Part shown: piece by piece, positions 1,930-24,311 of the stretch | Layout of the letters: each line of letters begins with the position of its first letter | Position numbering within the stretch: position 1 is the first letter of the stretch | Assembly (NCBI GenBank): GCA_030653975.1 | Contig: JAURYH010000021.1 | Span: forward strand, 124,001 to 188,000 | Source: Hydrogenophaga sp. | GTDB taxonomy: Bacteria; Pseudomonadota; Gammaproteobacteria; Burkholderiales; Burkholderiaceae_C | Reading direction: 5' to 3' | Length of the DNA: 64,000 nt | Notes under the pieces: generated by a model | The model's database searches: none | What the model saw: the letters and a program-made list of their open reading frames with translations, nothing else | Told to the model about the DNA's origin: nothing | Translations under genes and position numbers: made by a program

Positions 1930-2053
1930 CACCCCCGCCGCGCTGCGCGCGTCCCCCTCAAGTGGGCGGCACTGGCCGTCCGGCAAAGCCGGCCCGGCGG
2001 TGCCCTGGGCTGCACCGTTGCATGCGTCGGCGCTGCGAAGCGCTGCGGGGGTG
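1930..2053. repeat. Composite palindromic repeat, copy R1, between convergent genes
   Basis: It starts CACCCCCGC (1930-1938) and ends GCGGGGGTG (2045-2053), so its ends are inverted. Inside are the core hairpin sequence (CCGGCAAAGCCGG as read on +) and GCGCTGCGAAGCGC. It fills the gap between the smr stop (1922) and the protease stop (2061), about 7 bp from each. It reads like two stop-proximal ends of the family joined tail to tail. Confidence 0.75.
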
Positions 2054-2060
2054 CTCCTTC

Positions 2061-2585
2061 CTAGCGCGGGATCAGTCGCATCTCGCCCTGCAGTATCTGG
2101 ATGTCGAAGCGCTTGAGAAAACTCTGCCCGAGCAGCGCCTGCCCACTGTCTTCACCCACCAGCCCCACGGCCACCGTGGTGCCGGCCAGCCCGAGGTGGG
2201 CCGCCTGCACCGGCACGTTGCGCAGCAGCCGCCCGGGTATCGGGCCATTGGCGGTCTGGAATGTGACGCTCTGCCCGCCGTCCAGCCCCGCGCTGCGGGC
2301 AAAGGCTTCGCTCACCGTGACCGAGCTGGCTCCGGTGTCGACCAAAAACTCCACCGGCTGGCCGTTGACGCGGCCGGCCACGCGGAAATGGCCGTCCGGT
2401 CCGCGCGGGATCACCAGTTCGCCGTCACCGCCCTCGTGGGCCACATAGCTGGCCTGCTGCCTGCTCTCCAACTGGTCAAAACCCAGGTAGAGCACCCCCA
2501 TGAGCGCGAGCCAGAACAGCGTGATGCCCAGTGCGCCGCGGCGCGTGGTCCGTGCCACGCTGGTGCTGGTGTCCGGCTCGCTCAT
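2061..2585 (-). CDS. Membrane-anchored retropepsin-like aspartic protease
   Basis: A 174-residue protein of the single-domain clan AA aspartic protease family (TIGR02281-like). One hydrophobic segment at residues 18-37 anchors it, probably with the protease domain in the periplasm. The catalytic motif DTGAS is at 83-87, preceded by GQPVEFLV. A second hydrophobic glycine motif, LLGQSFLKRFDIQI, lies near the C-terminus. Such proteins act as dimers like retroviral proteases. The substrate is not known. It starts 12 bp after the end of the truncated haemoglobin gene and is probably co-transcribed with it. Confidence 0.85.
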   Translation of the reverse strand: MSEPDTSTSVARTTRRGALGITLFWLALMGVLYLGFDQLESRQQASYVAHEGGDGELVIPRGPDGHFRVAGRVNGQPVEFLVDTGASSVTVSEAFARSAGLDGGQSVTFQTANGPIPGRLLRNVPVQAAHLGLAGTTVAVGLVGEDSGQALLGQSFLKRFDIQILQGEMRLIPR

Positions 2586-2597
2586 GTGTGGGTGCCT

Positions 2598-3011
2598 TCA
2601 GACGCCGCCGGCGCGGTTGCGCATCCAGTCGGCGGTCTTGAAGAAGCTTTCTTTCAACCGCACACGCAAATCCTCGGGCACACCGGTCTCGCCCATCGCC
2701 TGGTCCATGCAGGCCAGCCACTGGTCGCGTTCCTGGACGCCGATGGCAAACGGCATGTGGCGCTGGCGCAGGCGCGGGTGGCCGAAGCGGTCTTCGTAGT
2801 GCGACGGCCCACCGAGCCAGCCACAGAGAAACCAGAACAGCTTCTGCCGTGCGTCGTCCAGCGTGCTGCCGTGGGCAAGGCGCAGCTCGCGGTAAGCGGG
2901 CTCGATGTCCATCAGGTCGTAGAAGCGGTCCACCAGCGCACGCACGCGCGCTTCGCCGCCGATCCATTCGAACGGGGTGGTGGGTGATGCAGCGGTCTCG
3001 GATGAGGTCAT
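2598..3011 (-). CDS. Group II truncated haemoglobin
   Basis: A 137-residue globin. The segment from FEWIGGEARVRALVDRFYDLM through YRELRLAHG and the GHPRLRQRHMPFAIG motif identify a 2/2 haemoglobin of group II; the His in RHMPF is the predicted proximal haem ligand. I chose the ATG at 3009-3011, giving MTSSETAASP, over one nine codons upstream because it fits family length. Related proteins bind O2 or NO, but no physiological role can be read from the locus. A repeat copy (R2) separates it from the upstream permease gene. Confidence 0.87.
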   Translation of the reverse strand: MTSSETAASPTTPFEWIGGEARVRALVDRFYDLMDIEPAYRELRLAHGSTLDDARQKLFWFLCGWLGGPSHYEDRFGHPRLRQRHMPFAIGVQERDQWLACMDQAMGETGVPEDLRVRLKESFFKTADWMRNRAGGV

Positions 3012-3044
3012 GGAATTGATCAGAAGTGTCTTGGTCAAGAGCCA

Positions 3045-3113
3045 GCGCGGAACCGGCTTGGCCGGGCCGCTGCTGGCGCCCCTGGGGGGTGACGCCGCAG
3101 GCGGCGCGGGGGG
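3045..3113 (+). repeat. Composite palindromic repeat, copy R2
   Basis: It contains the core GGAACCGGCTTGGCCGG, a GCCCCTGGGGGG hairpin and GCCGCAGGCGGC, and ends GCGCGGGGGG immediately before the complement of the permease stop codon at 3114. Orientation and position match the other copies: the G-run end touches the stop codon of the minus-strand gene. Confidence 0.7.
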
Positions 3114-5657
3114 TCAAACGGACGCACGGCGCAGGGTTTCAACCACGGGCGTTTTCAGGATGCTGCGCAGCCCCCACCAGCCCGCCATCAGGGCCAGCAG
3201 CCCTCCGGTCACGCTGCCCGCCAGCGGCACCCACAGCGAAGGCTGCCAGCTGAACTGGAAGGCGTATTTCGCCAGCGCCCAGCCCACGGCCATGGCCACC
3301 AGCGAAGCCAGGAAACCGGCCAGCAGGCCCACACCGAGCAGCTCGATGCGCTGCACGTTGCGCAGCAGCTGCGAGCCCGCACCCACCGCGCGCAGGACCG
3401 CAAACTCGCGCTCGCGCTCGCCGCGCGTGGCGGTGATGGTGGCCAGCAGCACGATCAGGCCCGCCGCGAGCGCAAAGGCAAACAGGAACTCCACCGCCTG
3501 GATCACCTGGCCCAGCACGCGCTGCACCTGGCCGATGGTCTGGCTCATGTCGACGTTGGTGATGTTCGGAAACTGGCGCACCAGCGCGTTGTCGAACTGC
3601 GCTTGGCCCTGCGGCGCCTGGAAGGCGCTGATGTAGGTGACGGGCACCTCGGGCAGATCGGCCACCGGGAAGATGACGAAGAAGTTCACGCGCATGGAAC
3701 CCCAGTCCACCTTGCGCAGGCTGGTGATGCGGCCCTGCACCGGCTGGCCGGCGATGTCAAAGCCGAGCAGGTCGCCGAGCTTCAGGCCCAGCTCTTCGGC
3801 CAGGCCTTCTTCCACGCTCAGGCCACCCGCTTCGTCTTCGGTCCAGCGCCCCTGCGTGACCTCGTTGTGCGGCGGCTTCTGAGCGGTGTTCGACAGGTTG
3901 AACTCGCGCTCCACCAGGCGCTGAGCCCGGTCGGTGGCGTAACTTTCGGGCGCCACCGGCTGCCCGTTCACCGACACCAGCCGGCCGCGGATCATGGGGT
4001 ACCAGTCGAAGCGCTGCACACCCGCCTGGCGCAGCGCCTGCTGGAAGGGCTCGCCCTGCTCGGGCTGCACGTTGATGACAAAGCGGTTGGGCGCGTCGGG
4101 CGGTGTGGCGCTGCGCCAGCTGGCGATCAGGTCGGTGCGCAGCAGCACCAACAGCACCAGCGCGAGCAGGCCCACGGCCAGCGAACTGATCTGCACCACC
4201 GCGTAGGCCGGCCGCGCCGAGAGCTGGCGCGTGGCCAGCACCAACGCGCGCGGCGCCGTGGCCTCGTTCACGCTGGCACGCAGCAGGCGCACCGCGCCGT
4301 AGCTGGCGAGCGCGAACACGGCCACCGCGGCGGCAAAACCACCCACGGCGATCAGCCCCAGCATCAGGTCGCGGCTGGCGGCGAGCAGCAGCGCGGCAAA
4401 GCCCGCCACCCCCAGGCCCAGCACCGCCAGCGTGGCCGGCTTGAGCTGGCCGACGTCGCGGCGGATCACGCGCAGCGGCGGCACCTGGGCCAGTTGCAGC
4501 ACCGGCGGCAGGCCAAAGGCCAGCATCAGCGTGAGCCCCATGCCCAGGCCCAGCAGCACCGGCCAGATGCTGGCCGCCGGCAGCGCCGACTCCACCAGCC
4601 CGGCCAGCAGCAAGACAAACACGTGGTGCAGCGCAAAGCCCAGCACCACGCCCAGCACGCTCGCTCCCAGGCCAACCAGCACGAACTCGAAGGTGTAGGC
4701 GCGCGCCATCGTGCCCTGCGACAGGCCGAGCACGCGCAGCATGGCGCAGTCGTCCAGGTGGCGCTGTGCAAAACCACGCGCCGCGATGGCCACCGCGACC
4801 GCCGACAGCAGCGCCGCGAGCAAGGCCACGAGGTTGAGGAATTTTTCGGCGCGCTCCAGCGTCTGCTGCATGGCGGGCTGGCCACCTTCGAGCGATTCCA
4901 GCCGCAGGCCACGCACGCCGGGCATCGCGATCTGCGCCTGCGCCCATTGCACGAACTGGCTCACCGCCGGGTCGCTGCCAGCCACGGCCAGGCGGTAGGT
5001 CAGGCGGCTGGCGGGCTGCACCAGACCGGTGGCCGGCAGGTCGGCGGCGTTGATCATCACGCGCGGTGCAAAGGTCAAAAAGCCGGCGCCCCGGTCCGGT
5101 TCGACCACGATCACCTTGTCGATGCGAAAACGGCTGTCCCCCATCAGCAGCGGCGAGCCGACCTGCAGGTCGAGCGCCACCAGCAGGGCCGCGTCCACCC
5201 AGGCCGTGCCGGGCGCAGGGATGTCGCGCGTGGGCGCGTCCGGCGCCTGCGGTCCGTCGGCCACGCGCAGGCTGCCACGCAAGGGGTAGCCGGTGTCCAC
5301 CGACTTCAGCGCCACCAGCTTGGCGGCGCCGCCGTCTTCATCGCGCGCGCGACCCATGGTGGGGAAACCCAGCGTCTGCGTGGTCTGCAGCCCCAGCGCC
5401 TGCGCCTGCTGCGCGAACGCGGGCGGCGTGGCGTTGTCGCTGCTGATCACCGCATCGCCCCCGATCAGCGCCCGCGCGTCGCGCGCCAGACCGCCCTGCA
5501 ACCGGTCGGCAAAAAAGCCCACCGCGGTGAGCGCAGCCACCGCCAGCGTCACCGCGACCAGCAGCAGCCGCAATTCACCCGCGCGCCAGTCGCGCAAGAG
5601 CGAGCGCCAGCCGAGAGACCAGAAGGAAACGGGAAGTGGAGCGGGTGCGACAGCCAT
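3114..5657 (-). CDS. FtsX-family ABC transporter permease (YbbP-like)
   Basis: An 847-residue inner-membrane protein starting at the ATG complementary to 5655-5657 (MAVAPAPLPVSFWSLGWRSL). It has an N-terminal membrane segment (LLLVAVTLAVAALTAVGFF), a large periplasmic region and two FtsX-type four-helix blocks (about residues 260-430 and 720-840, the second with ATRGEREREFAVLRAVGAG). This arrangement is that of YbbP-like permeases, which work with a YbbA-type ATPase to move lipophilic material. No ATPase gene lies beside it here. The substrate cannot be inferred. Confidence 0.85.
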   Translation of the reverse strand: MAVAPAPLPVSFWSLGWRSLLRDWRAGELRLLLVAVTLAVAALTAVGFFADRLQGGLARDARALIGGDAVISSDNATPPAFAQQAQALGLQTTQTLGFPTMGRARDEDGGAAKLVALKSVDTGYPLRGSLRVADGPQAPDAPTRDIPAPGTAWVDAALLVALDLQVGSPLLMGDSRFRIDKVIVVEPDRGAGFLTFAPRVMINAADLPATGLVQPASRLTYRLAVAGSDPAVSQFVQWAQAQIAMPGVRGLRLESLEGGQPAMQQTLERAEKFLNLVALLAALLSAVAVAIAARGFAQRHLDDCAMLRVLGLSQGTMARAYTFEFVLVGLGASVLGVVLGFALHHVFVLLLAGLVESALPAASIWPVLLGLGMGLTLMLAFGLPPVLQLAQVPPLRVIRRDVGQLKPATLAVLGLGVAGFAALLLAASRDLMLGLIAVGGFAAAVAVFALASYGAVRLLRASVNEATAPRALVLATRQLSARPAYAVVQISSLAVGLLALVLLVLLRTDLIASWRSATPPDAPNRFVINVQPEQGEPFQQALRQAGVQRFDWYPMIRGRLVSVNGQPVAPESYATDRAQRLVEREFNLSNTAQKPPHNEVTQGRWTEDEAGGLSVEEGLAEELGLKLGDLLGFDIAGQPVQGRITSLRKVDWGSMRVNFFVIFPVADLPEVPVTYISAFQAPQGQAQFDNALVRQFPNITNVDMSQTIGQVQRVLGQVIQAVEFLFAFALAAGLIVLLATITATRGEREREFAVLRAVGAGSQLLRNVQRIELLGVGLLAGFLASLVAMAVGWALAKYAFQFSWQPSLWVPLAGSVTGGLLALMAGWWGLRSILKTPVVETLRRASV

Positions 5658-5727
5658 GGCGCGACCATAACGCAAGCCGATCAACCTCGCGGCACAAAGC
5701 GGTTTGGAAAGAACTGGGCACGCGTTG

Positions 5728-5764
5728 CCCTCACCCCCGCCCTCTCCCAGAGGGAGAGGGAGAA
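5728..5764. repeat. REP-like hairpin (CCCTCTCCC/GGGAGAGGG)
   Basis: Perfect 9-bp arms CCCTCTCCC (5740-5748) and GGGAGAGGG (5752-5760) around AGA, preceded by CCTCACCCCCG. I recognise this as a motif scattered in intergenic DNA of many proteobacteria. It lies between upp and the permease gene and could fold in a transcript of either strand. Confidence 0.75.
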
Positions 5765-5814
5765 ATACACCGCATGCCGGAAAGGTCACCGGCGTGCGTG
5801 CCCCCACAGGTCCA

Positions 5815-5900
5815 GGATGCGGTGGAACCGGCTTTGCCGGGCCACTCGCATCGCCCCTTGAGGGGCGGAGCGGCTACACGCAGTGAGCCGCGATGGGGGT
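5815..5900 (+). repeat. Composite palindromic repeat, copy R3
   Basis: It shares about 42 identical bases with the copy at 24236, including GGAACCGGCTTTGCCGG. A CCCCTTGAGGGG hairpin follows, and the copy ends GATGGGGGT 5 bp before the complement of the upp stop codon. Confidence 0.8.
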
Positions 5901-5905
5901 GTGCG

Positions 5906-6538
5906 TCACTTCGTGCCGAAAATGCGGTCGCCCGCATCGCCCAGGCCGGGCACGATGTAGCCGTGCTCGTTCAGGCCGCGGTCCACCGCCGGGGTGTAGA
6001 CCGGCACGTCCGGGTGGTGATCGTGGAAGGTCTTGAGGCCTTCGGGGCAGGTCACGAGGCAGACGAAACGGATCGAGCGCGGGTTCGTCTGCTTGAGCCG
6101 GTCCACCGCGGCCACGGCGGAGTTGCCGGTGGCCAGCATGGGGTCGAGCACGATCACGTCGCGATCGGACATGCCACTGGGCATCTTGAAGTAGTACTCC
6201 ACGGCCTGCAGCGTCTTCGGATCGCGGTAGAGACCGATATGGCCCACGCGCGCACCCGGAATCACCTGCAGCATGCCGTCGAGAAAACCGTTGCCCGCGC
6301 GCAGGATGGAGGCGAGAACGACCTTCTTGCCGTCGATCACGCGCGAGGTCATTTTCTCCAGCGGGGTCTCGATCTGAATCTCCTGCATCGGCATGTCGCG
6401 CGTGATCTCGTAGGCCAGCAGGGCGCTGAGTTCGTGCACCAGCTCGCGGAAACTCTTGGTGCTGGTGTCCTTGCGGCGCATCAGCGTGAGTTTGTGCTGG
6501 ACCAGGGGGTGATCGATGACGTGGACGTCGCGGCTCAT
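5906..6538 (-). CDS. upp: Uracil phosphoribosyltransferase
   Basis: A 210-residue cytoplasmic enzyme making UMP from uracil and PRPP (pyrimidine salvage). It begins [18 protein letters not shown], the standard family start, with the ATG complementary to 6536-6538. The PRPP-binding loop [10 protein letters not shown] and the uracil-binding C-terminus [16 protein letters not shown] are intact. The longer open frame upstream of this Met has no family similarity. A repeat copy follows its stop. It is probably monocistronic. Confidence 0.97.
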
Positions 6539-6662
6539 CGGCAGACTTTCAAAAAACGGGGTGAACGGGGCATGGCCGGAACAGCTCTGCCGACAGGAAG
6601 TCGAGTTTATGCCCGATGCATCCCGCTGCGGGCGAGGCCGCAGAGCCGCGCTGAACGGCGCC

Positions 6663-7604
6663 TCAGGCGACAGCGGCCACCGGAGCCACGCCCAGCGGCT
6701 TGGGCACGGCATCGAAGACGATGCGCTGCGGATGTGAATAACACAGGAAGCGCATGTGGGTTGCACGACCGATGGCGCAGAGCCCCACGCGCTGGGCAAC
6801 TTCGAGCCCCATCTGGGTGATGCCGCTGCGCGAGATCACCACCGGCACCCCCATCTGCGCCGACTTGATGACCATTTCACTGGTCAGGCGGCCCGTCGTG
6901 TAGAACACGCGTTCACCCGCCGGAAGGCCAGACGGTCGATCCGGCGCCGGGCCGCCCCAAGCCGGATCAGCCCCCTCGGGGGGCAGCGACCCGCGTGAGC
7001 GGTGGAGCGTGGGGGCCTCGTTGATGGCCATCCAGCCGGCGATGGTGTCCACCGCGTTGTGGCGCCCCACATCCTCGACGAAGAACTGCAGCTTGCCGCC
7101 GACGAACAGCGCGCAGGCGTGCACCGAACCCGCCACCTTGTAGGTGGTGTCGCGCAGCCGGATGGTGTTGACGATGTCGTAGAGGCTGGACTGGCGCAGC
7201 ACCGCGTCGGGCGGCAGGCGGATGCTGTCGACGTCGTCCATCAGGTGACCGAACACGCTGCCCTGGCCGCAGCCAGTCGTGACCACCTTGTGCGCGGTGC
7301 GGTCCTCGATGCGGTGAATGCCGTGGCGGGTCTTGACCGAAGCCGCGCCCACGTCCCAGTCCACGGTGATGGATTCGATGTCGTCCACCGACGCCACCAG
7401 CCGCTGGTTGAGCAGGTAGCCCAGCACCAGCCATTCGGGATGGCCACCCAGGGTCATCAGCGTCACCAGCTCGCGCTTGTCCACATACACCGTAAGGTCG
7501 CGCTCAGCGGGGATGAAGATCGACTCGCGCAGGCCATGCTGGTTCATGACCTCAACTTCGCGGGTCAAAGGTGCATGGGCCTGGGTGAGGTGGGGCAAAG
7601 GCAT
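6663..7604 (-). CDS. fdhD: FdhD sulfurtransferase for formate dehydrogenase, with an in-frame repeat insertion
   Basis: A 313-residue protein, last gene of the fdh operon. FdhD passes sulfur from IscS to the molybdenum cofactor of formate dehydrogenase and is required for activity. The diagnostic segments [18 protein letters not shown] and [16 protein letters not shown] are present. The active-site loop reads TTGCGQGS: Cys112 corresponds to the first Cys of the E. coli CxxC loop, and the second is absent. Residues about 199-231 (rich in Pro, Gly and Arg) replace the short linker of other FdhD proteins and are encoded by copy R4 of the dispersed repeat. The frame stays open, so the gene is probably functional. 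Confidence 0.93.
6946..7016 (+). repeat. Composite palindromic repeat, copy R4, inside fdhD
   Basis: Aligned with the copy at 10243, it shares CCGGGCCGCCCCAAG, CCCCTCGGGGGGCAGCG and AGCGTGGGGG in the same order and spacing. It lies wholly within the fdhD coding region and adds codons without a stop or frameshift. Confidence 0.8.
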
Positions 7605-7712
7605 GGCAGCAGACTACAACAAGTTCGAGGGGAACAAAGTCAAAGGGCCGGCAACCGAAGGTGCGGCCCTTTCAAACACAGGCAAACCGGAAAAGGGCAG
7701 CGCCGTGGTGAA

Positions 7713-8108: not shown

Positions 8109-8130
8109 CGCAAATGTCCTTGGAGGGGGT

Positions 8131-9354: not shown

Positions 9355-9364
9355 GGCTGTCCCT

Positions 9365-10218: not shown

Positions 10219-10242
10219 GGTGTCGTTCTCCTGATTTTTCCG

Positions 10243-10314
10243 CCGGGCCGCCCCAAGGAAAAATGCGTCCCCTCGGGGGGCAGCGCATTACACGAAGTGA
10301 AAAGCGTGGGGGTC
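10243..10314 (+). repeat. Composite palindromic repeat, copy R5, between fdhA and fdhB
   Basis: It contains CCGGGCCGCCCCAAGG, CCCCTCGGGGGGCAGCG and AGCGTGGGGG. The G-run end is 5 bp from the complement of the fdhA stop codon. In the fdh transcript it would form hairpins directly after fdhA and before the fdhB ribosome site. Confidence 0.8.
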
Positions 10315-10318
10315 ATGG

Positions 10319-13285
10319 TTATGCCCGCTCTACATTGCAGACCGTCGTCTTGGTTTCCTGCATCATCGTGACGATGTCGTAACCGTAGGTGGTGGCCGTG
10401 TTCACCGCTTCACCGCGAACCACCGGGAAAGCGCCATCCGGGTAGTGCGGCTTCATGTCCTGGCCCTGCCAGTGTCCCGAGAAGTGGAACGGCAGGAACA
10501 CCGTGTCGGGACCCACGCGATCCGTCACCAGCGCCTGCACATTGATGCGTGCTCCGGTGGGGGTGTGCACCCAGACGCGCTCGCCGTTGCGGATGCCGCG
10601 CTCGCTCGCTGCCGCCGGGTTGATCTCGACGAACATCTCCTGCTGCAGCTCGGCCAGCCAGGGGTTGGAGCGGGTTTCCTCGCCACCGCCCTCGTACTCG
10701 ACCAGGCGGCCCGAGGTCATGATCAGCGGGAATTTTTCGTGGACCTTGTCGTCCACGTTCTTCTGCTGCAGCGACTTGTAGAGCACCGGCAGGCGCCAGC
10801 GGTTCTTCTGGTCATCGTGGCTGGGGTACTTGGCCACGAGATCAGGGCGCGTGCCGTAGATCGGTTCGCGGTGCTGCGGAATCGCGTCGGGGAAGTTCCA
10901 TACCACGGCACGGGCCTTGGCATTGCCGAACGGATGGCAGCCGTGCGCCATGGTGACGCGCTGGATGCCACCCGAGAGGTCGGTCTTCCAGTTCTTGCCT
11001 TCGGCGGCGGTTTTCTCGGCCTCGGTCAGGTCGTCCCACCAGCCCAGCTTCTTCAGCAGCACATGGTCGAACTCGGGGTAACCGGTGGTGATCTCCGAAC
11101 CCACCGAGTACGAACCGTCTTCGGCCAGCAGGCTCACGCCTTCGCGCTCGACGCCGAAGTTCGCGCGGAAGTTGCCGCCGCCCTCCATGACGTGCTTGGA
11201 GGTGTCGTACAGGTTGGGCGAGCCCGGGTGCTTGATGGCGGCGCTGCCGTAACACGGCCAGGGCAGACCGAAGTAGTCACCGCTCATGTCGTAGCCGGTT
11301 TCCTTGTCCACCACCTTGCCCTTGCACTTGAGCGACTTCACATCGAAGGCACCCATGTTCCGCATGTGCGCTTTCAGGCGCTCCGGGCTCTGGCCGGTGT
11401 AGCCGATGGTCCAGACCGAGGCGTTGATTTCGCGCAGGATGTCTTCGGGCACGGGCTCGTCCAGGCCCTTCACCTTCTGCATCTTGTAGTTCTTCGACAG
11501 CTCGGCGCCAAAGCCCAGCTTCTCGGCGAACTGGTGCATGATCATGTGATCGCTGCGGCTCTCCCACAGGGGTTCGATCACCTTCTCGCGCCACTGCAGC
11601 GAGCGGTTCGACGCGGTGCACGAGCCGCTGGTTTCGAACTGCGTGGCTGCCGGCAGCAGGTACACCGCGCGGTTGGGGTTGAGGTCTTCGGGCTTGCCGG
11701 GCATGGCCGCCATCGACGCCGTCGCCGAAGGGTACGGGTCCACCACCACCAGCAGATCGAGCTTGTCCATCGCCCGCTTCATCTCCAGACCCCGCGTCTG
11801 CGAGTTGGGCGCATGGCCCCAGAAGAAGATGCCGCGCAGGTTGGGGCCCTGGTCGATCAGCTCGTTGTTCTCCATCACGCCGTCGATCCAGCGCGAGACG
11901 GTGATGCCGGGCTTTTCCATCATGCCTTCGGCGTACTGGGCCTTGATCCAGTCGTATTCCACGCCCCAGACCTTGGCAAAGTGTTTCCACGAGCCGGCGG
12001 CCAGGCCGTAGTAGCCCGGCAGCGAATCGGGGTTGGGGCCGACGTCGGTCGCGCCCTGCACGTTGTCGTGGCCGCGGAAGATGTTGGTGCCGCCGCCGCT
12101 CTTGCCCACGTTGCCCAGCGCCAGCTGCAGGATGCACGAGGCGCGCACCATGGCGTTGCCGATGGAGTGCTGCGTCTGACCCATGCACCAGACGATGGTG
12201 GCGGGCTTGGCTTCGGCCAGCATCTTCGCCACCTTGAACATCTGCTCTTCCTTGACGCCGCAGGCCTCTTCGACCTTGTCCGGCGTCCACTTGGCCAGCA
12301 CGTCTTCGCGCACCTTGTCCATGCCGTAGACGCGGTCGTTGACGTACTGCTTGTCTTCCCAGCCGTTCTTGAAGATGTGGTGCAGCAGGCCGAACAGGAA
12401 CGGGATGTCGGTGCCCGAGCGGATGCGCACGTATTCGTCGGCCTTGGCCGCGGTGCGGGTGAAGCGCGGATCGACCACGATCATCTTGCAGCCGTTTTCC
12501 TTGGCGTGCAGCATGTGCAGCATCGAGACCGGGTGGGCCTCGGCGGCGTTGGAGCCGATGTACAACGCGCACTGGCTGTTCTGCATGTCGTTGTACGAGT
12601 TCGTCATGGCCCCGTAACCCCAGGTGTTCGCGACGCCAGCCACCGTGGTGGAGTGGCAGATGCGCGCCTGGTGGTCGCAGTTGTTGGTGCCCCAGAAGCT
12701 CACGAACTTGCGCAACAGGTAGGCCTGTTCGTTGTTGTGCTTCGAAGAGCCGACGAAGTACACCGAGTCGGGGCCGCTGGCCTCTTTCAGCTCGTTCATC
12801 CTGGCGGTGATCTCGTTGAGCGCCACGTCCCAGCTGATGCGCTGGTACTTGCCGTTGACCAGCTTCATCGGGTAGCGCAGGCGGTATTCACCGTGGCCGT
12901 GCTCGCGCAAGGCGGCGCCCTTGGCGCAGTGGGCACCGAGGTTGATCGGCGAATCGAACACCGGCTCCTGGCGCACCCAGACGCCGTTTTCAACGATCGC
13001 GTCGGTGGCACAGCCCACCGAGCAGTGGGTGCAGACGGTGCGCTTGACTTCGATCTTGCCGGTGCCGTCGATGGACTTGCCTTCGGCGGCCTTGGCCTTC
13101 TTCACCAGCGTGAGCTGCGTGGCGGCCAGGCCCACACCGACCCCGAGGCCGGAGCGGCGCAGAAAGCCGCGGCGGTCCATGGTGGGCAGCGCGGCCGACA
13201 GGCCCCGCTGCAGGCTGTGGACAAAGGAGGTTTGTGCACGGGCGCCGTGGGCACCGGGCGTGGAGGACTTTTTGGTCAGCAACAT
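10319..13285 (-). CDS. fdhA: Formate dehydrogenase catalytic alpha subunit (Tat-exported, Cys type)
   Basis: A 988-residue molybdopterin oxidoreductase that oxidises formate to CO2. A twin-arginine signal (Arg38-Arg39, RRGFLRRSG, then a hydrophobic stretch to about residue 67) predicts export, so the active site faces the periplasm as in E. coli FDH-N/O. The N-terminal 4Fe-4S site is Cys85, Cys88, Cys92 and Cys120. The metal ligand is Cys210 followed by His211 (RICHSTT), so no selenocysteine is needed. The C-terminal molybdopterin-dinucleotide domain includes TSGRLVEYEGGGEETRSNPW. The upstream ATG gives 37 residues before the RR pair; a Met at residue 36 is an alternative start. Mo versus W cannot be decided from sequence. 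Confidence 0.96.
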   Translation of the reverse strand: MLLTKKSSTPGAHGARAQTSFVHSLQRGLSAALPTMDRRGFLRRSGLGVGVGLAATQLTLVKKAKAAEGKSIDGTGKIEVKRTVCTHCSVGCATDAIVENGVWVRQEPVFDSPINLGAHCAKGAALREHGHGEYRLRYPMKLVNGKYQRISWDVALNEITARMNELKEASGPDSVYFVGSSKHNNEQAYLLRKFVSFWGTNNCDHQARICHSTTVAGVANTWGYGAMTNSYNDMQNSQCALYIGSNAAEAHPVSMLHMLHAKENGCKMIVVDPRFTRTAAKADEYVRIRSGTDIPFLFGLLHHIFKNGWEDKQYVNDRVYGMDKVREDVLAKWTPDKVEEACGVKEEQMFKVAKMLAEAKPATIVWCMGQTQHSIGNAMVRASCILQLALGNVGKSGGGTNIFRGHDNVQGATDVGPNPDSLPGYYGLAAGSWKHFAKVWGVEYDWIKAQYAEGMMEKPGITVSRWIDGVMENNELIDQGPNLRGIFFWGHAPNSQTRGLEMKRAMDKLDLLVVVDPYPSATASMAAMPGKPEDLNPNRAVYLLPAATQFETSGSCTASNRSLQWREKVIEPLWESRSDHMIMHQFAEKLGFGAELSKNYKMQKVKGLDEPVPEDILREINASVWTIGYTGQSPERLKAHMRNMGAFDVKSLKCKGKVVDKETGYDMSGDYFGLPWPCYGSAAIKHPGSPNLYDTSKHVMEGGGNFRANFGVEREGVSLLAEDGSYSVGSEITTGYPEFDHVLLKKLGWWDDLTEAEKTAAEGKNWKTDLSGGIQRVTMAHGCHPFGNAKARAVVWNFPDAIPQHREPIYGTRPDLVAKYPSHDDQKNRWRLPVLYKSLQQKNVDDKVHEKFPLIMTSGRLVEYEGGGEETRSNPWLAELQQEMFVEINPAAASERGIRNGERVWVHTPTGARINVQALVTDRVGPDTVFLPFHFSGHWQGQDMKPHYPDGAFPVVRGEAVNTATTYGYDIVTMMQETKTTVCNVERA

Positions 13286-13302
13286 GGGGTTCTCCTGCTG
13301 GC

Positions 13303-13887: not shown

Positions 13888-13910
13888 GCTTGCGACAAGT
13901 TGTCGCAAGC
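13888..13910. promoter_or_regulatory. 23-bp palindrome, candidate enhancer site for the NtrC-type regulator
   Basis: Perfect 11-bp arms GCTTGCGACAA (13888-13898) and TTGTCGCAAGC (13900-13910) around one base. It lies about 150 bp upstream of the sigma-54 promoter, the usual enhancer distance, and about 100 bp before the regulator gene. Confidence 0.6.
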
Positions 13911-14006
13911 CGGCCATCACGACCGCGGTGTCAACCCGTGCCCAGGTGTCGTGTATTGGTCAATGACCCAGTGTTTTGATCGGCTTTATCCGTAGAATCC
14001 CCGGCG

Positions 14007-15392
14007 GTGGAACCCACCTCATTCACCCCCTTCCCCGAAAAGAACCTCGAAGGCTGGCCCGACTGGTCGATCCTGATCGTCGACGACGAACAGGGCATGC
14101 TCAACTTCCTGGTCAAGACCCTCGCCCCGCGTTGCCAGTTCGTGATGAGCGCGAGCAGCGCCGAAGAAGGCGCGGAATGGCTGCGCGGCCACCACGCCGA
14201 TCTGGTGATCCTGGACATTTCCCTGCCCGGCAAGAACGGCGTGCGCTGGCTCAAGGAACTGCGCGAACAAGGCTTCACCGGCGAGGTGATCCTGATCACC
14301 GCGTTTGCCGATCTGGACACCGCCATCGAGGCCCTGCGCGCCGGTGCCTCGGACTTCATCCTCAAACCCTTCCGGGTGCCGCAGATCCTCAACGCCGTGA
14401 AGCACTGCTACGAGCGCTCGCGCCTGCGCCGCGAGAACTTCGTGCTCAAGCGCGCCGTGGCGCCGCTGGCCATGGGCGGCCCGGCGCTGGTCGGCGGTTC
14501 CGCCGCGATGCAGCAGTTGCGCGAAGCCATCGCCCGCGTGGCGCCGGTGAACAGCACGGTGCTGTTGCAGGGCGAATCGGGCACGGGCAAGGAGCTCGTG
14601 GCGCGTGAACTGCACGCACAGGGCCCGCGCGCGGCCGGTCCCTTCGTGCCGGTGAACTGCGCGGCCGTCTCGCCCGAGCTGATCGAGAGTGAACTCTTTG
14701 GCCATGCCAAGGGCGCGTTCACCGGTGCCACCCGCGCACGCGACGGCCTGTTCCACTACGCGCAGGGCGGCACCTTGTTTCTCGACGAAGTCGCCGAACT
14801 GCCGCTGCCCATCCAGGCCACGCTGCTGCGCGCCATCGAAGACCTGCAGATCCGCCCGGTGGGCAGCGAACAGCTGATGCCGGTGAACCTGCGCATCATG
14901 GCCGCCACCAACCGCCGCCTGGCCGATGAAGTGGCGGCCGGGCGCTTTCGCAAGGACCTCTTCTTCCGCCTGCAGGTGGTGGACCTGACGTTGTCGCCGC
15001 TGCGCGAGCACAAGGACGACATCGCCCCGCTGGTCGAGCATTTCATGGGCCAGCTCGCGCCCGCGCTCGGCGTGGCGCCGCTGCAGATCAGCGGACCGGA
15101 AATGGACTTCCTGCGCCAGTACCACTGGCCCGGCAACGTGCGTGAGCTGCGCAACCTGATCGAACGCTCGCTGATCCTGGGCTCACTCAACGTGTCGGCG
15201 CTCTACCCGGGCGACACCCCCCGGCAGGCCGCCGCCCCCGGCGGGGATCCGACCGACCTGCACACGCTGGAGAAACGCCACATCCTCGCTGTGCTGGACT
15301 CGGTGCTGGGTGACAAGACACGCGCCGCGCAGTTGCTGGGCGTTTCGCGGCGCACGCTGGAGCGGCGCGTGGCCGAATGGAACACTTTGTGA
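14007..15392 (+). CDS. NtrC-family sigma-54-dependent response regulator
   Basis: A 461-residue activator. The receiver domain (about residues 20-135) has acidic Asp26/Asp27, phospho-acceptor Asp70 (LVILDIS) and Lys120 (ILKPF). The AAA+ domain has Walker A GESGTGKE (189-196), the sigma-54 contact loop GAFTGA (236-241) and Walker B TLFLDE. A Fis-type helix-turn-helix closes it (AAQLLGVSRRTLERRVAEW). The only conventional start in frame is a GTG at 14007; no ribosome site precedes it. The sensor kinase follows 34 bp downstream and the fdh operon is divergent, so formate dehydrogenase is the likely target. The signal is unknown. Confidence 0.92.
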   Translation: MEPTSFTPFPEKNLEGWPDWSILIVDDEQGMLNFLVKTLAPRCQFVMSASSAEEGAEWLRGHHADLVILDISLPGKNGVRWLKELREQGFTGEVILITAFADLDTAIEALRAGASDFILKPFRVPQILNAVKHCYERSRLRRENFVLKRAVAPLAMGGPALVGGSAAMQQLREAIARVAPVNSTVLLQGESGTGKELVARELHAQGPRAAGPFVPVNCAAVSPELIESELFGHAKGAFTGATRARDGLFHYAQGGTLFLDEVAELPLPIQATLLRAIEDLQIRPVGSEQLMPVNLRIMAATNRRLADEVAAGRFRKDLFFRLQVVDLTLSPLREHKDDIAPLVEHFMGQLAPALGVAPLQISGPEMDFLRQYHWPGNVRELRNLIERSLILGSLNVSALYPGDTPRQAAAPGGDPTDLHTLEKRHILAVLDSVLGDKTRAAQLLGVSRRTLERRVAEWNTL

Positions 15393-15395
15393 AGT

Positions 15396-15420
15396 CACCC
15401 CCGCCGCGCTGTGCGTGGCC
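15396..15420 (-). repeat. Fragment R6 of the composite repeat
   Basis: CACCCCCGCCGCGCTG is identical to the start of copy R1 and begins 3 bp after the regulator stop codon. The remainder is missing, and the kinase ATG follows at 15427. Confidence 0.55.
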
Positions 15421-15426
15421 AGCAGC

Positions 15427-17547: not shown

Positions 17548-17565
17548 TCCTGCGCGGCCGCAGGA

Positions 17566-18183: not shown

Positions 18184-18243
18184 ATCGTTTGCTCGTTCGG
18201 TTGAGGCATCACCACAAAACCAGGAAAGCCAGGGTCCGGTCAA

Positions 18244-18318
18244 GGCACGCCGTGGAACTGGCTTTGCCAGGCCACAGGCGTGGTCCCCCTGGGGGAAGAC
18301 GCGAAGCGGCGCAGGGAG
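18244..18318 (+). repeat. Composite palindromic repeat, copy R7
   Basis: It contains GGAACTGGCTTTGCCAGG, TCCCCCTGGGGGAAG and GACGCGAAGCGGCGCAGGG. The last element is identical in copy R8. It ends directly at the complement of the polyferredoxin stop codon (18319). Confidence 0.8.
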
Positions 18319-20427
18319 TTACACATCCGTAATGCGGGTCTCGCCCGGGTTCGAATAGATGTCCACCACGCGGCAGTCGCCGCACATTTTCAGGCGTTCC
18401 AGCGCCTCGCCCTGGAACATCGCGTGGCCGCCGAGCTTGGCCAGCATGACTTCGATGCCCTTGAGCGTGCCGAACGGTTTGCTGCAGCGGATGCACAGGT
18501 AAGGCAACGCTTCGTTGAGCACGCGCAGCTGCTTGCGCTGCTCGCCCAGCAGCAGGCGCGGTTGCAGCGTGATGGCGTTTTCCGGGCAGGTCTTTTCGCA
18601 CAGACCGCACTGCACGCAGTTCTTTTCGATGAAGCGCAGCTGCGGGCGTTCGGCGTTGTCCTGCAGCGCGCTGGCCGGGCAGGCGCTGACGCAGCTCAGG
18701 CACAGGGTGCAGCTGTCCTTGTTGACGTTGATCGTGCCCAGCAGCGAGGCCGCGGGCAGTTCGATGATGTCGGCGGTGCGGGGGCGGGTGGCGCTGTCCT
18801 GCAGCAGGTGATCAATGGCGAGCTCCACCGTGGCGCGTTTCTCGGCCTGCACCGCGAAACTGGCACGGCGCTGCACACCCTGGGCCGGCGCTTCGCCCAG
18901 CTCGGCGTCGAGCGCCATCAGGTCGCGCGCATCGCGGGCTTCGATCAGCTTGAAGTGGCGCCCGCTGTAACCCAGGCCGCTCACGATGGCCTGCGCGACC
19001 GCCATCTGCTCGCGCACAGCGTCGCGGTACTGCGGCGCTTCTTCGCCCGTCATCAGCACCCAGACCTGCGAGGCGCCGTAGGCGAAGGCGGTGAGCCAGA
19101 CGTCCAGCCCCATGGACGCGGTGTGCCACAGCGACAGCGGGATCACGCGCGCGGGCACGCCGCGCACCGACTTGTCGAGCGCGGCAGCGCGGCCCAGGTC
19201 GCCAACCAGCGCCGCGCCGGCTTCCTGGCTGTGCAGCAGAAAGGCCGCGTCTTTGCCGCCCGCCTTGGCGTAGGTGGCCAGCAGGGTGCGCAGCTTCACA
19301 CCCTGCTCGCTGGCGCGCGGGTAGGCGTAGCTCAGCGCGCCGGTGGGGCAGACGGTGGTGCAGGTGCCACAGCCGACGCAGAGGTTGGGGTTGACAACGA
19401 TCTGGTTGCGCTTGAGGTCGCTGCTGATGGCCGAGGCCGAACAGATGTCGACGCAGGCGTTGCAGCCCACTTTCTCGTTGCGGCCGTGGGCGCAGAGCTT
19501 CTGCTTGTAGGTGAAGAACTTCGGCTTCTCGAACTCGCCCACCAGGTCGCGCAACTGGATCAGTGCCTGCATGGCGGCCGCATCCTTCAGGCCGCCGGGC
19601 AGGTGCATATAGCCTTGCGGCAGCGCATGCTGGCTGAAGGCCGGTGTCTTGCGCAGGTCCAGCACCAGGTCGAATCGGTCGCTGTGCGTCTGCGGCTCGC
19701 GCTGGAAGTTGATGGCCCCCACCGCTTCGCAGGCCTTGACGCAGGCGCGGTGCGAGCGGCAGCGGTCCATGTCGATCTGGTAGTCAAGGCCGATCGCGTC
19801 TTCGGGGCAGGCGGCGATGCAGGCGTTGCAGCGCGTGCAGAGGTCGAGGTCGATCGGGTTGCGGGTGGTCCAGCTCACGTCGAAGGCGCCGAGCCAGCCC
19901 GTGATGTGCGGCGCCTCGCCGCCGATGACGGGGTAGCGGCGCGCCTGCATGCCGGCGCCACCCACGGCCATGAGGGTCACGTCCAGCGCGTCGTTCAGCA
20001 GCGCCGCGGCGCGTTCGGCGTCTTCCAGCGCCCCGATGATGAGCAAGCGGCCTTCGCTGGTGTAGGTCACCGTGGGCACGGGTTCGGCGTCGGGCAGGCG
20101 GGCCGCAGCCAGCAGCGCGGCCATCTTGGGCGTGGCCATCGCGGCCTCGCGGCCCCAGCCCCCGGTCTCGCGGATGTTGACGAAGCGGATCGGCCGCACA
20201 TCGAGCGAGACCGCGCCCTCGGTCTGCTCCGAAAGTTCGGCAAACAGCCGGCTCTCCTGCGTGCAGGCCACCACCAGCTCTTCACTGCTGCGGCAGGCCT
20301 TCTGGAAGGCGGGCGCGTCGCGGCGGCAGAGCGAGGTGTGCAGGGTCAGGTCTTCATCCAGCGCCTCGCCCAGGGCCTTGGGGTTCAGGGGCATGGTCTG
20401 GTTGCAGTTGCAGATCAGCGTGGTCAT
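18319..20427 (-). CDS. Polyferredoxin-like multi-4Fe-4S protein of the fdh cluster
   Basis: A 702-residue cytoplasmic iron-sulfur protein. Cys groups include CTRCNACIAACPE (197-209), CRSHRACVKAC (223-233), CNACVDIC (322-329), CVGCGTCTTVCPTG (350-363), CTLCLSCVSACPAS and CVQCGLCEKTCPEN. A C-terminal pair CIRC...CGDC could bind another metal. At least six clusters are possible. No transmembrane helix or flavin motif is seen. It starts inside the DUF3306 gene (74-nt overlap) and is followed by the TorD-type chaperone. Related genes accompany FDH operons in beta-proteobacteria. A role in maturation or in a second electron route is inference. Confidence 0.88.
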   Translation of the reverse strand: MTTLICNCNQTMPLNPKALGEALDEDLTLHTSLCRRDAPAFQKACRSSEELVVACTQESRLFAELSEQTEGAVSLDVRPIRFVNIRETGGWGREAAMATPKMAALLAAARLPDAEPVPTVTYTSEGRLLIIGALEDAERAAALLNDALDVTLMAVGGAGMQARRYPVIGGEAPHITGWLGAFDVSWTTRNPIDLDLCTRCNACIAACPEDAIGLDYQIDMDRCRSHRACVKACEAVGAINFQREPQTHSDRFDLVLDLRKTPAFSQHALPQGYMHLPGGLKDAAAMQALIQLRDLVGEFEKPKFFTYKQKLCAHGRNEKVGCNACVDICSASAISSDLKRNQIVVNPNLCVGCGTCTTVCPTGALSYAYPRASEQGVKLRTLLATYAKAGGKDAAFLLHSQEAGAALVGDLGRAAALDKSVRGVPARVIPLSLWHTASMGLDVWLTAFAYGASQVWVLMTGEEAPQYRDAVREQMAVAQAIVSGLGYSGRHFKLIEARDARDLMALDAELGEAPAQGVQRRASFAVQAEKRATVELAIDHLLQDSATRPRTADIIELPAASLLGTINVNKDSCTLCLSCVSACPASALQDNAERPQLRFIEKNCVQCGLCEKTCPENAITLQPRLLLGEQRKQLRVLNEALPYLCIRCSKPFGTLKGIEVMLAKLGGHAMFQGEALERLKMCGDCRVVDIYSNPGETRITDV

Positions 20428-21019
20428 CGTGGTTTTCTTCTGGTTCCGGCTGGGCAACCGGCTCGGGTGCATCAGCCTGGGGGGCCGGGGCCTCTTCGGG
20501 CACGTCGGCGTGTTCTTCGACGGCGGCAATGGGGGCCACCGCCGGGGTTTTCACTTCGTTGGGGTCGTCCACCAGTTTCAGGAACTGGGCACCCACCATC
20601 TTGGCCATTTCGGCTGCGGACAGCGGGCTGGGCTTCGAATAATCGTCGATGTAGATGTCGAGCCCGTCCATCACGTTGTAGTGCGGGTCGGTGAAGAGCT
20701 TTTTCACGGCCGCGTTGCGCACCTCGGCGGGCACGCCGCGCGCCACGAAGGGCTTGAAGTCACCTTCCAGCGAGAGGCGGGCCACGTCTTCCAGCGTGGG
20801 TGCGGGCGGGGCTTCGGCCGGTTCGGCGGGTGCCGGCGGCAAGGACACGGCGGGCGCGACGGTCGGGGTCAGCCCTTGGACGGCGCCGGGCGCCATCACC
20901 GGAGCCACCGCCGCCGGGGGCTCGGGGGCCGGAGGCTCGGCGGGCAAGGGCTGCCCGGTGCGCACCCGCACCTTGCGGCGCGACCAGCGCGAGAAGAAGT
21001 TGTCGTCTTCGGACGTCAT
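20354..21019 (-). CDS. DUF3306-domain protein
   Basis: A 221-residue protein, function unknown. It begins MTSEDDNFFSRWSRRKVRV, the family signature. Residues 25-75 are Pro/Ala-rich. The conserved core is about 75-160 (LARLS-type start, DFKPFVARGVPAEVRNAAVKK, then DGLDIYIDDYSKP). The tail is acidic with Pro, Gln and His repeats. DUF3306 and DUF3305 genes occur together in formate dehydrogenase clusters, which is the only functional hint. Its start overlaps the amidotransferase stop (ATGA) and its last 74 nt overlap the polyferredoxin gene. Confidence 0.88.
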   Translation of the reverse strand: MTSEDDNFFSRWSRRKVRVRTGQPLPAEPPAPEPPAAVAPVMAPGAVQGLTPTVAPAVSLPPAPAEPAEAPPAPTLEDVARLSLEGDFKPFVARGVPAEVRNAAVKKLFTDPHYNVMDGLDIYIDDYSKPSPLSAAEMAKMVGAQFLKLVDDPNEVKTPAVAPIAAVEEHADVPEEAPAPQADAPEPVAQPEPEENHDDHADLQLQPDHAPEPQGPGRGAG

Positions 21020-21858: not shown

Positions 21859-22478
21859 GGTTTCGGACCTGTGCCGTGTTTTTCGGTGGAGATGCGCACT
21901 GGCTGACCGAAGCGGTCGGTCAGCGGCTTGAAGCTGTCGGGCCGCTTGCGGCGTTTGGGTTCGGGCTGGTAGGTGGTGTCCACAAAACCGCGCAGCCAGT
22001 CCACCACCTCGTCGGCCGCCGGGACTTGGTCCACGCGCTCCTGCGCGTCGAGCCAGCGCCCGGCATCGTGGTAGCTCAGCGTCACGGTCTGCGGCACCGC
22101 CATGGGCTCGCCATCGAGCAGCCGCTCCTCGTCGGCGCGCCAGACGACCCAGAAACAGGGCTGGGGACTGTTCAGGTTGAGGAAATACCCTTCGGCGTCA
22201 TCGCGGAACAGCTCGACGCGAAAGCGCGGGAACAGCCAGTGGGTGGATGACGGATCGGCCGCGGGCTGCAAGGGCTCGACGGCCTGCGGCTCGTGCAGCG
22301 TGTCGGGCGTGGCGGATCCGGTGTCTTCGGGGCTGCCGCAGGGCAGCACATCGGCGAGCACCCAGCGCCAGGGCTGCCAGCGGCTCATGGGGCCACTGAC
22401 GGGTTCGCGGCGCATGACCACATCCACCTCAATGGCCGGGCGGTGTGGGGTTGAGGTCTGTATGGGTTCGGTTGTCAT
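21855..22478 (-). CDS. DUF3305-domain protein
   Basis: A 207-residue protein of unknown function, first gene of the accessory fdh operon. The conserved part begins IEVDVVMRREPVSGPMSRWQ and continues with WRWVLADVLP, FLNLNSPQPCFWVVWR and VTLSYHDAGRWLDAQERVD, typical of DUF3305. The tail is basic (PEPKRRKRPDSFKPL). I chose the ATG complementary to 22476-22478 (MTTEPIQ); an ATG at 22502 is an alternative. Its stop overlaps the amidotransferase start. The family co-occurs with DUF3306 and FDH genes. Confidence 0.85.
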   Translation of the reverse strand: MTTEPIQTSTPHRPAIEVDVVMRREPVSGPMSRWQPWRWVLADVLPCGSPEDTGSATPDTLHEPQAVEPLQPAADPSSTHWLFPRFRVELFRDDAEGYFLNLNSPQPCFWVVWRADEERLLDGEPMAVPQTVTLSYHDAGRWLDAQERVDQVPAADEVVDWLRGFVDTTYQPEPKRRKRPDSFKPLTDRFGQPVRISTEKHGTGPKP

Positions 22479-22632
22479 GGGCAGACCCGCAATGTAAGCC
22501 ATCGCCCAGCGGCGCCGCACGACCCACCGGGTTCACCCCAGCACCCTTGGTGTCTTGCGCGGGAAAACCCGAAGGCCGGACGCATGGCCCGGCGGCGCTT
22601 CAGAGGCCGAGCGCTTTTTTGCTCATGCCCGC

Positions 22633-23946
22633 TCAGTAGGTTTCCAGGTGCAGGCGCCCTTCGCGCTTGAGCGATGCCCCCACCGTGTCCCAGTTCAGAC
22701 CCGCCTGCGTGGCCACGTCGTGCAGCGCCAGCACCACACCCTCTTCCATGCTCTTCAGGCCGCACACGTAGAAGTAGGTGTTCGGGTCCTGCAGCAGCAC
22801 GGCCAGGTCGGCCGCGCGCTCGCGCATCGCGTCCTGCACGTAGCGTTTGGGCTGGCCCGGCGTGCGGCTGAAGGCGAAGTGGGTGTCGATGAAGTCCTTG
22901 GGCAGGTTCTGCAAGGGGCCGAAGTACGGCAGCTCTTGCTGTGTGCGGGCGCCGAAGAACAGCATCAGCTTGCCGCCCTCGAACTTGCCGCTGGTGCGCA
23001 GGCGGCGGCGCCATTCCGTCATGGCGCGCATGGGGGCGCTGCCGGTGCCGGTGCAGATCATGACGATGTTGGACCTGGGGTGGTTGGGCATCAGGAAGCT
23101 GGTGCCGAACGGGCCGATCACCTCAACCTTGTCGCCCACCTGCAGGTCGCACATGAAGTTGCTGGCCACGCCGCGCACGGGCTGGCCCGAATGGTCTTCG
23201 AGCACGCGTTTGATGGTGAGCGAAAGGTTGTTGTAGCCGGGGCGTTCGCCGTTGCGCGGACTGGCGATGGAGTACTGGCGTGCGTGGTGCGGCCGGCCTT
23301 TGGCGTCGGTGCCGGGTGGCACGATGCCAATGCTCTGGCCTTCGAGCACCGGGAAGGGCATGCTGCCGAAGTCGAGCACGATGTGGTGGGTGTCGTAGTC
23401 GTGGCCGGCCTGTTTGCCGACTTCGGTGACGCGCACGTTGCCGGTGACGGTGGCGGTGACGGATTTCTGCACGGCCTTGGGGCCATAGAGGTTGGTGTAG
23501 GCGTGGGCGGCGCTCCAGGGCGGGAGGGTGGCGCCGTAGGCGGCGGACTTGAAGGTGTCCTGGCCGGTGGGGTCGACTGGTGCTTCGACGGCGGGTTCGG
23601 GTTCTGCCTCGGCCTCGGTGGTGACCGGTTCGGCTGCGGCATCGCCCATGAGCGCTGCGCGCTCGGCCGCCGACAGCTCGACGGGCAACGCGTCCCAGCT
23701 GAGCTGCTCGGCCAGCGAGTAGGCCTTGATGCGCGGCATGGTGCGGTAGTTGTCGATCGAGCCGGTGGGGCACGGCGAGATGCAGTCGTTGCACCAGTTG
23801 CACTTGTCTGCATCAACCACGTAGTTGCGCGAGTCGTGCGTGATGGCCTGCACCGGGCAGATCGCCTCGCAGGTGTTGCAGCGGATGCAGATTTCGGGGT
23901 CGATCAGGTGCTGCTTGATGACGGCGGCTTCGGCTGGGGCGTTCAT
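22633..23946 (-). CDS. boxA: Benzoyl-CoA 2,3-epoxidase reductase component BoxA
   Basis: A 437-residue NADPH-dependent reductase that feeds electrons to BoxB in the aerobic box pathway. Residues 1-65 hold a two-cluster ferredoxin domain ([12 protein letters not shown] and [14 protein letters not shown]). A variable Glu/Ala/Pro linker (about 95-125) leads to a ferredoxin-NADP reductase module with [16 protein letters not shown] for FAD, and [15 protein letters not shown] and [11 protein letters not shown] for NADP. The ATG complementary to 23944-23946 has a GGAG site. It is 365 bp from boxB, an unusually wide gap filled with repeats. Confidence 0.95.
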
Positions 23947-24311
23947 CGTGTGTCTCCGTGGCTTTTTTGGCAGTGTAGGTCTGAGTTCGGCAGATGGTTC
24001 ACGGAAGTGTTTTTGCGTTGGCGCTGGATTTTGGGTTTTTTGCTCGCCCCCGCCACTGCGTTGACGTGGCGCCGCGCGACACGGCGCGGCTGACGCCGTT
24101 CGTGTCCCCCGCCGGCCTGCGGCCGGCTCCTCCTTGACCTCACTGCGCCAGCCACACCGCGTCGCGCTCGTGGGCGTAAGTGCGAGTGGGATACCGAAAC
24201 ACCCACCGCCTATCCGGAGCGAGTGACCCCACCCAGGATGCGGTGGAACCGGCTTTGCCGGGCCACTCGCATCGTCCCCCTGAGGGGAAGACGCGAAGCG
24301 GCGCAGGGGGG
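23947..24311. other. Repeat-rich gap between boxB and boxA
   Basis: A 365-bp region without a gene. The boxA-proximal part (to about 24050) is T-rich on the + strand and contains the boxA ribosome site. Positions 24060-24180 are palindrome-rich (for example CCGGCCTGCGGCCGG). Positions 24236-24311 are repeat copy R8. Confidence 0.7.
24236..24311 (+). repeat. Composite palindromic repeat, copy R8
   Basis: The fullest example. GGAACCGGCTTTGCCGG is followed by a CCCCCTGAGGGG hairpin, then GACGCGAAGCGGCGC and a G-run that touches the complement of the boxB stop codon at 24312. It shares about 42 identical bases with R3 and 22 with R7. Confidence 0.85.

Follow-up and report, generated by a model that had tools for sequence, protein, structure and literature searches.

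Why should copy after copy of a dispersed palindromic repeat end within a few nucleotides of a stop codon? The question is raised by a 64-kb stretch of contig JAURYH010000021.1 of Hydrogenophaga sp. (assembly GCA_030653975.1; a 4.09-Mb genome in 74 contigs), hereafter the window. The initial annotation had described here a single composite repeat, with copies at positions 1930, 3045, 5815, 6946, 10243, 18244 and 24236 and a fragment at 15396, and had proposed either a mobile palindromic element with an insertion preference or a functional module of the 3′ untranslated region (UTR). We found that two families are present. The first of them, family I, is probably a non-autonomous mobile element similar to the repetitive extragenic palindromic (REP) sequences, which stands mostly next to stop codons, spreads as DNA and acts in the transcript.

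The repeat copies themselves are real; those at 5815 and 24236 are 98% identical across 46 nt. Instead of one family, they make two families and a remnant. Family I has the copies at 1930, 3045, 5815, 18244 and 24236 and the remnant at 15396; the copies at 6946 (inside fdhD) and 10243, which differ in the 3′ half and give no match to the family I model R1 introduced below, belong to family II. A family I element is ∼100–110 bp long. Read on the gene strand, the stop codon is followed after 0–13 nt by a run of Cs (C-run) and an arm hairpin that varies (GCGCCG...CGGCGTC, or ATCGCNGGCTCACTGCGTGTAGCC in arm type A); next come a CCCCC/GGGGG hairpin, a central 15-bp hairpin (six variable bp, GYGG/CCRC, CCGGC/GCCGG and a three-base loop), a short spacer and the right-end motif CGCKCCGG, behind which conservation ends. 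With up to one mismatch this motif occurs in 23 of 50 copies of this genome that score at least 60 bits (mean of 3.4 after shuffling), and in the other 27 it is not that clear. In L009, L013 and L020, and at C24:1621 of this genome, a second truncated C-run with the arm GCGCCGCA lies between stop and element and looks like an older remnant.

A BLAST search with the copy at 24225–24320 gave at least 44 matches in the same genome (40 candidates scored). The covariance model R1, built from an alignment of 29 copies of this genome (A1), gave at least 149 matches in the whole genome (among 150 candidates scored). The sample used for counts comprises five complete contigs (739 kb, or 18% of the genome); they were not chosen by element position, several of them being long contigs with matches listed earlier. 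There R1 produced 69 rows, 62 distinct matches and 60 copies of at least 40 bits, which extrapolates to about 330 family I copies per genome. The scores in this sample fall from 45.2 to 30.7 bits with none between; given so clean a gap, family I is not a chance match of GC-rich sequence. On the window R1 finds five copies (64–103 bits) and a sole further match up to E = 1 (51633–51729, 14.7 bits). The absence of copies beyond 24.3 kb holds within the window, and copies are frequent elsewhere in the genome. Rfam covariance models run on window positions 1–26000 gave two weak matches, neither of them at an element.

The position relative to genes was determined with genes called in the 739-kb sample by a home-made codon-hexamer finder. 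Measured from the model edge, 45 of the 60 copies begin 0–15 nt past a stop on their own strand, 12 at a distance of 0 nt, versus 3.4% under random placement in gaps of at least 90 nt, so that placement relative to genes is non-random. When the distance is instead taken from the stop to the first C-run after it, so that longer or doubled arms are accommodated, 51 of the 60 copies fall within 15 nt (matched control 5.1%). The adjacency to stops noted in the window, with the C-run end of the element (its G-run end in the earlier reading) towards the stop, is thus far above chance. The same holds in 20 congeners, with the C-run no more than 15 nt from a same-strand stop in 36 of 40 copies (matched control 7.5%). 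Named genera were covered with a core pattern in the best 80 of at least 120 stretches, and 9 of 87 cores were dropped for lying <150 nt from a stretch end. Among the matches listed, the nearest upstream gene edge is a same-strand stop for 69 of the remaining 78 cores and the stop lies <110 nt upstream for 64; in 63 of those 64 the C-run stands 0–11 nt behind it (matched control 14%). Many long gaps (e.g. 368, 325 and 272 nt) still have the element hugging the stop; the copy in a gap of 1251 nt has no adjoining same-strand stop. Overall, the stop-locking of family I is unusually tight.

Stops that adjoin family I are less often TGA, and more often TAA or TAG, than the stops of other genes. The frequency of TGA is 29/45 next to elements versus 578/682 for other genes of this genome, and 96/148 versus 1232/1497 in three sets pooled, in which the congeners share ancestry. 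One possible cause is stronger termination beside a structured UTR.

Mobility is indicated by comparison of orthologous sites. Behind upp, where states were read by eye at 30 loci (ours included) out of 56 genomes with a match, 21 of the 30 congeneric genomes have a complete element, two have remnants and seven are empty; two arm types occur among the complete elements, both behind the same stop, and the Upp end is unchanged. We also compared 20-kb orthologous regions of 20 congeners, considering gaps present in at least five genomes. Eight such gaps have an element in at least one genome, and six of them show both filled and unfilled states: 3114/2598 (filled in 4/19), the gap at upp (13/17 in this comparison), 14007/15415 (6/16), 561/1287 (2/15), 18319/17566 (1/9) and the convergent pair 1287/2061 (2/7). 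The other two are filled in every genome compared (6/6 and 5/5). In six congeners the genes that flank the element at 3033–3113 overlap by 4 nt and have no element (gap 3114/2598), while the gap that holds the element at 18238–18316 is element-free and only 1–26 nt long in eight congeners. Some unfilled gaps contain remnants. One of these is the window's fragment at 15396, a real piece that we now regard as a probable deletion remnant, with complete copies in congeners L289, L290, L291, L298, L299 and L306.

The convergent pair at 1923–2060 had been described as having an element form at both ends. One complete element facing the upstream (+) gene is indeed present; the other end looks like a remnant only. 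At this pair, L291 and the window's genome share an unusual element whose orientation is opposite in the two, each copy standing behind its own stop. With site states entered by hand on a tree of 19 genomes, the upp site needs six arm-state changes (three of them of presence) and 14007/15415 needs five. The gaps of congeners are thus empty, filled, differently filled, inverted or occupied by remnants, and the proposal of a mobile palindromic element with an insertion preference fits well. Copies come and go between species, and this probably alters how the messages of the genes end.

The range of family I was estimated from three draws of genomes. In a draw of 120 genomes from the family, R1 has matches in 85 and none in the other 35. 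With R2, a covariance model built from many genera, matches were found in 10 of 300 genomes of the order draw, seven in the window's family and three in one other family, and in 2 of 184 genomes of the class draw, both of the window's genus. The three genomes of the other family (G270, G305 and G392) are the sole carriers outside the window's family in the order draw. In the family, order and class draws 37, 17 and 28 candidates, respectively, were scored per genome under stricter filters, and absences are soft for this reason: genome G115 has seven R1 matches yet no R2 match. The pattern is one of family-wide spread with genus-specific forms.

A behaviour in the transcript is suggested by predicted folding. 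The first base paired in the minimum free energy structure lies no more than 15 nt from the stop in 49 of 51 stop-adjacent copies. For the 110 nt that follow the stop, the mean predicted folding energy is −52 kcal/mol at 63 gene ends where either strand carries an element and −40 kcal/mol at 127 ends without one. Behind a stop, family I would form the beginning of the transcribed 3′ UTR. Its first stem would then be at most ∼15 nt from the stop, a distance at which Escherichia coli REPs reportedly cause ribosomes to stall and translation to drop (PMC12306157, in a passage citing earlier work), and GC-rich hairpins in the message should slow 3′-to-5′ exonucleases. Intrinsic terminators, where present, would be located at the right end of the element or beyond it. 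With the first pairs this close and the folding stronger, slower release of ribosomes and protection from 3′ exonucleases are, by analogy with the E. coli REPs, probably to be expected at family I stops.

The fixed position, sense orientation and strong folding are compatible as well with the functional 3′-UTR module proposed at the outset; its version as an intrinsic terminator, with no U-tract to be seen, is unsupported. Such a module could be host-selected, with rare copies made by recombination or gene conversion being kept for the benefit of the gene (mRNA protection, ribosome recycling, help in Rho-dependent termination or insulation between genes) and mobility being incidental. We hold this to be possible but rather unlikely. 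Position and orientation are kept in many long gaps too, the spread is family-wide with genus-specific forms, neighbouring stops shift from TGA in the pooled sets (with congeners not independent), and REPs are said, in one statement of PMC2817692, to facilitate Rho-dependent termination; all of this would suit selection by the host. It is harder to reconcile with the patchiness at orthologous stops, including the pairs that overlap by 4 nt and are empty in six congeners, with the occurrence of remnants, with the 35 of 120 family genomes lacking an R1 match (under strict filters, 37 candidates scored in each) and with the sibling family II, which inserts inside genes.

The other way to account for a function at gene ends is a family of intrinsic transcription terminators, an identity we consider highly improbable. 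GC-rich hairpins behind stops are what such a family would have, and convergent gaps are over-represented (14 of 58 placed elements versus 89 of 724 gene pairs). Still, alignments A1–A3 have no U-tract, and in gaps of at least 80 nt terminator-like sites occur at 8 of 50 ends with a same-strand element versus 36 of 180 ends without; where the element is on the opposite strand the count is 1 of 16. The T-run of the eight same-strand cases starts 99–195 nt past the stop, level with the element's right end or farther out.

The central hairpin is maintained by compensatory change. In A2, an alignment of 63 copies from many genera (3 of the 63 rows are window copies missing the 3′ part, which was counted as gaps, as in several rows of this genome in A3), 97.5% of the cells of the central hairpin are paired; 128 cells changed on both sides versus 36 after shuffling, and the covariation score is 0.328 versus 0.026–0.090 for slid pairing. 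GYGG pairs with CCRC and covaries with it (20 double changes in A2). In A1 double changes are seen at 7 of 23 pairs.

This pairing bears on the kind of mobility. The known REPs have an unpaired 5′ GTRG tag beside the hairpin, and the gene of the REP-associated tyrosine transposase (RAYT) is usually flanked by repeats. Family I likewise consists of short palindromes that stand behind genes in many copies, carries the tetranucleotide GYGG at the base of its inner stem and resides in a genome with one Y1_Tnp gene, so that a classical REP or bacterial interspersed mosaic element (BIME) mobilised by a RAYT (Y1/TnpA-REP) transposase had to be considered, and the initial annotation had suggested looking for one. 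We find this origin very unlikely. Neighbourhood shows no such link: no R1 match occurs within ∼1.5 kb of the genome's own Y1_Tnp gene, and no R2 match in 31 Y1_Tnp loci (own locus included; ∼3.3 kb each; a subset of the matches). Association shows none either, Y1_Tnp being present in 23 of 29 genomes with at least 20 R1 matches versus 27 of 35 with none (a hand count over the 120 genomes, unlisted genomes by elimination); genomes G018 and G053 are element-rich and 100% complete and have no Y1_Tnp match. Finally, the GYGG is paired and covarying, not a free tag. A composite transposon was rejected, with the genes between neighbouring family I copies of the 739-kb sample not transposase-like (by eye, first 60 residues).

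We propose instead that family I, as a mobile element, spreads as DNA by hairpin-dependent copying or gene conversion, with a helper factor that is probably other than a Y1/RAYT transposase. How stops would be found is a separate matter. Three different stop codons without a common motif, a distance of 0–13 nt and an orientation that follows the gene raise the idea that the insertion process recognises the gene 3′ end itself (the stop codon, the terminating ribosome or the transcript) and not a DNA sequence; one convergent gap has the element facing either gene, and the best-scoring third of copies is already bound to stops. We put this forward as a speculative and, on balance, unlikely suggestion. 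By thirds of the score, a same-strand stop is the upstream neighbour of 17/20 copies in the best-scoring third and of 20/20 and 15/20 in the others. Since the best third is stop-bound and at most 1 of 62 matches lies in a gene, targeted insertion is slightly favoured over the loss of all other insertions.

Several observations weigh against a stop-adjacent mobile element that acts in the transcript. No mobilising gene for family I was found in the Y1/RAYT searches or among the genes between neighbouring copies, and inspection revealed neither a recognisable target-site duplication nor terminal inverted repeats. For nine of the 60 copies no stop was called on the same strand in the 70 nt upstream; two of the nine are between divergent genes and one is 274 nt from a stop in a gap of 428 nt. 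One of the 62 R1 matches is inside a called gene (C17:24974–25059), whose start is probably over-extended. CCC is found within 15 nt behind the stop in 327 of 727 genes of this genome; with CCC so common there, the C-run measure alone is weak and the model edge is the stronger one. Gene ends and terminator-like sites were both judged with home-made tools. The number of pair types in A2 (18) does not exceed what shuffling gives (mean of 16.7), and 121 of 500 shuffles reach 18. G–U pairs (5 cells) are not commoner than A–C mismatches (7) in A2, so that selection for an RNA form is unsupported and the central pairing may be kept as DNA; the excess in A1 (17 G–U versus 1 A–C) is mostly due to a single doubtful pair in the first arm. 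Last, site 3114/2598 (FtsX-like) needs only one change on the tree, which means that fast turnover is not general to all sites.

The features of the window are collected in Table 1.

Table 1. Family I and family II elements and remnants in the window (gene labels other than fdhD are a reading of the sequence only)
Feature	Position	Strand	Basis	Adjoining gene
Family I element	1932..2012	+	R1 match 1927–2012, 65.7 bits	C-run 9 nt past stop (1920–1922) of gene 1287–1922 (Smr-like)
Apparent remnant of oppositely oriented family I element (arm + G-run)	2029..2052	−	Sequence; complete in congener L291 in this orientation	Faces stop of gene 2061–2585
Family I element	3033..3113	−	R1 match 3033–3117, 64.1 bits	C-run immediately 3′ of stop of gene 3114–5597 (permease-like)
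Family I element, longer arm type A	5790..5899	−	R1 match 5808–5891, 71.3 bits; right end read from sequence	C-run 6 nt past stop of upp (5906–6538)
Family II element	6939..7015	−	Sequence; ortholog comparison	In frame inside fdhD (6663–7547)
Family II element	10232..10312	−	Sequence; too divergent for the stricter family II pattern	C-run 6 nt past stop (10319–10321) of gene 10319–13285
Apparent family I remnant (C-run + first arm)	15398..15426	+	Complete elements in same gap of six congeners	Behind stop of gene 14007–15392
Family I element	18238..18316	−	R1 match 18238–18322, 86.3 bits	C-run 2 nt past stop of gene 18319–20472
Family I element, best match to R1	24214..24311	−	R1 match 24229–24314, 102.6 bits	C-run immediately 3′ of stop of gene 24312–25739

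Family II is a second palindrome family, whose copies stand either behind stops or within protein genes, in frame. It shares with family I the 5′ module (the C-run and a CCCCCC–GAGGGG hairpin); its 3′ half is distinct and ends in CTTGGGGCGGCCCGGC within another palindrome. The stricter pattern, which misses the copy at 10243, detects 14 family II copies in the sample of this genome. Four are inside genes, and three of these are on the gene strand in one frame, coding for GSLPP(E/K)GADP(A/S)W(G/D)G. Seven of the ten intergenic copies have a neighbouring same-strand stop no more than 54 nt from the pattern start; of the remaining three, two are the second member of a tandem and one lies far from a stop. 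Among 16 fdhD orthologs the insert is present in three at one loop (L300 and L307 carry it at this same loop), reduced to a remnant in one (L302) and absent from 12. At two sites, C15 ∼65826 and C24 (−) ∼47654 and ∼47738 (numbered along the strand read), family II copies are flanked on either side by ATGAG, one being a tandem double. It looks as though they had entered an ATGA stop/start overlap and duplicated it, leaving both genes intact.

If our interpretation of family I is true, many environmental bacteria, a large group with Variovorax, Hydrogenophaga, Polaromonas, Acidovorax and relatives, carry a mobile repeat that rewrites the first ∼100 nt of many 3′ UTRs. The differences between congeners would then be natural with/without pairs in which effects of stop-proximal hairpins could be seen outside E. 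coli, and such pairs bear on termination, ribosome recycling and mRNA decay. How a DNA element could locate stop codons would then be a further question.

Among known systems, miniature inverted-repeat transposable elements (MITEs) are defined by terminal inverted repeats and a target-site duplication. Family I is like them in being small, non-autonomous and polymorphic in its insertions, and differs in that neither hallmark was seen by inspection. The palindromic elements of Rickettsia are in-frame palindromic inserts inside protein genes. Family II resembles these in habit and, unlike them, also occurs behind stops.

The closest resemblance of family I is to REPs and BIMEs of E. coli and Pseudomonas, which are also short imperfect palindromes, present in high copy number, extragenic and downstream of genes, some of them no more than 15 nt from the stop. 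The RepRanger paper (PMC12306157) gives 446 of 4072 at this distance, and 260 of 496 in earlier work. Family I is a longer composite (∼100–110 bp) of different sequence in sense orientation, is locked more tightly to stops (45 to 51 of 60 copies within 15 nt), shows no Y1/RAYT association and has its tetranucleotide paired, not free. The palindromic repeats tagged with GTAG or CGTC, as PMC3733652 describes them, are near or overlap the ends of open reading frames, some supplying the stop codon; neither tag was seen at the ends of family I, and the names Variovorax, Acidovorax, Polaromonas, Comamon- and Burkholderi- are absent from that text. No description of family I was found in the open-access literature searched (subscription papers were outside the search), nor any match there, as text, to six core stretches of 12–15 letters. 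As far as searched, family I is new in sequence, a REP-like family that stands apart from the RAYT-associated REPs.

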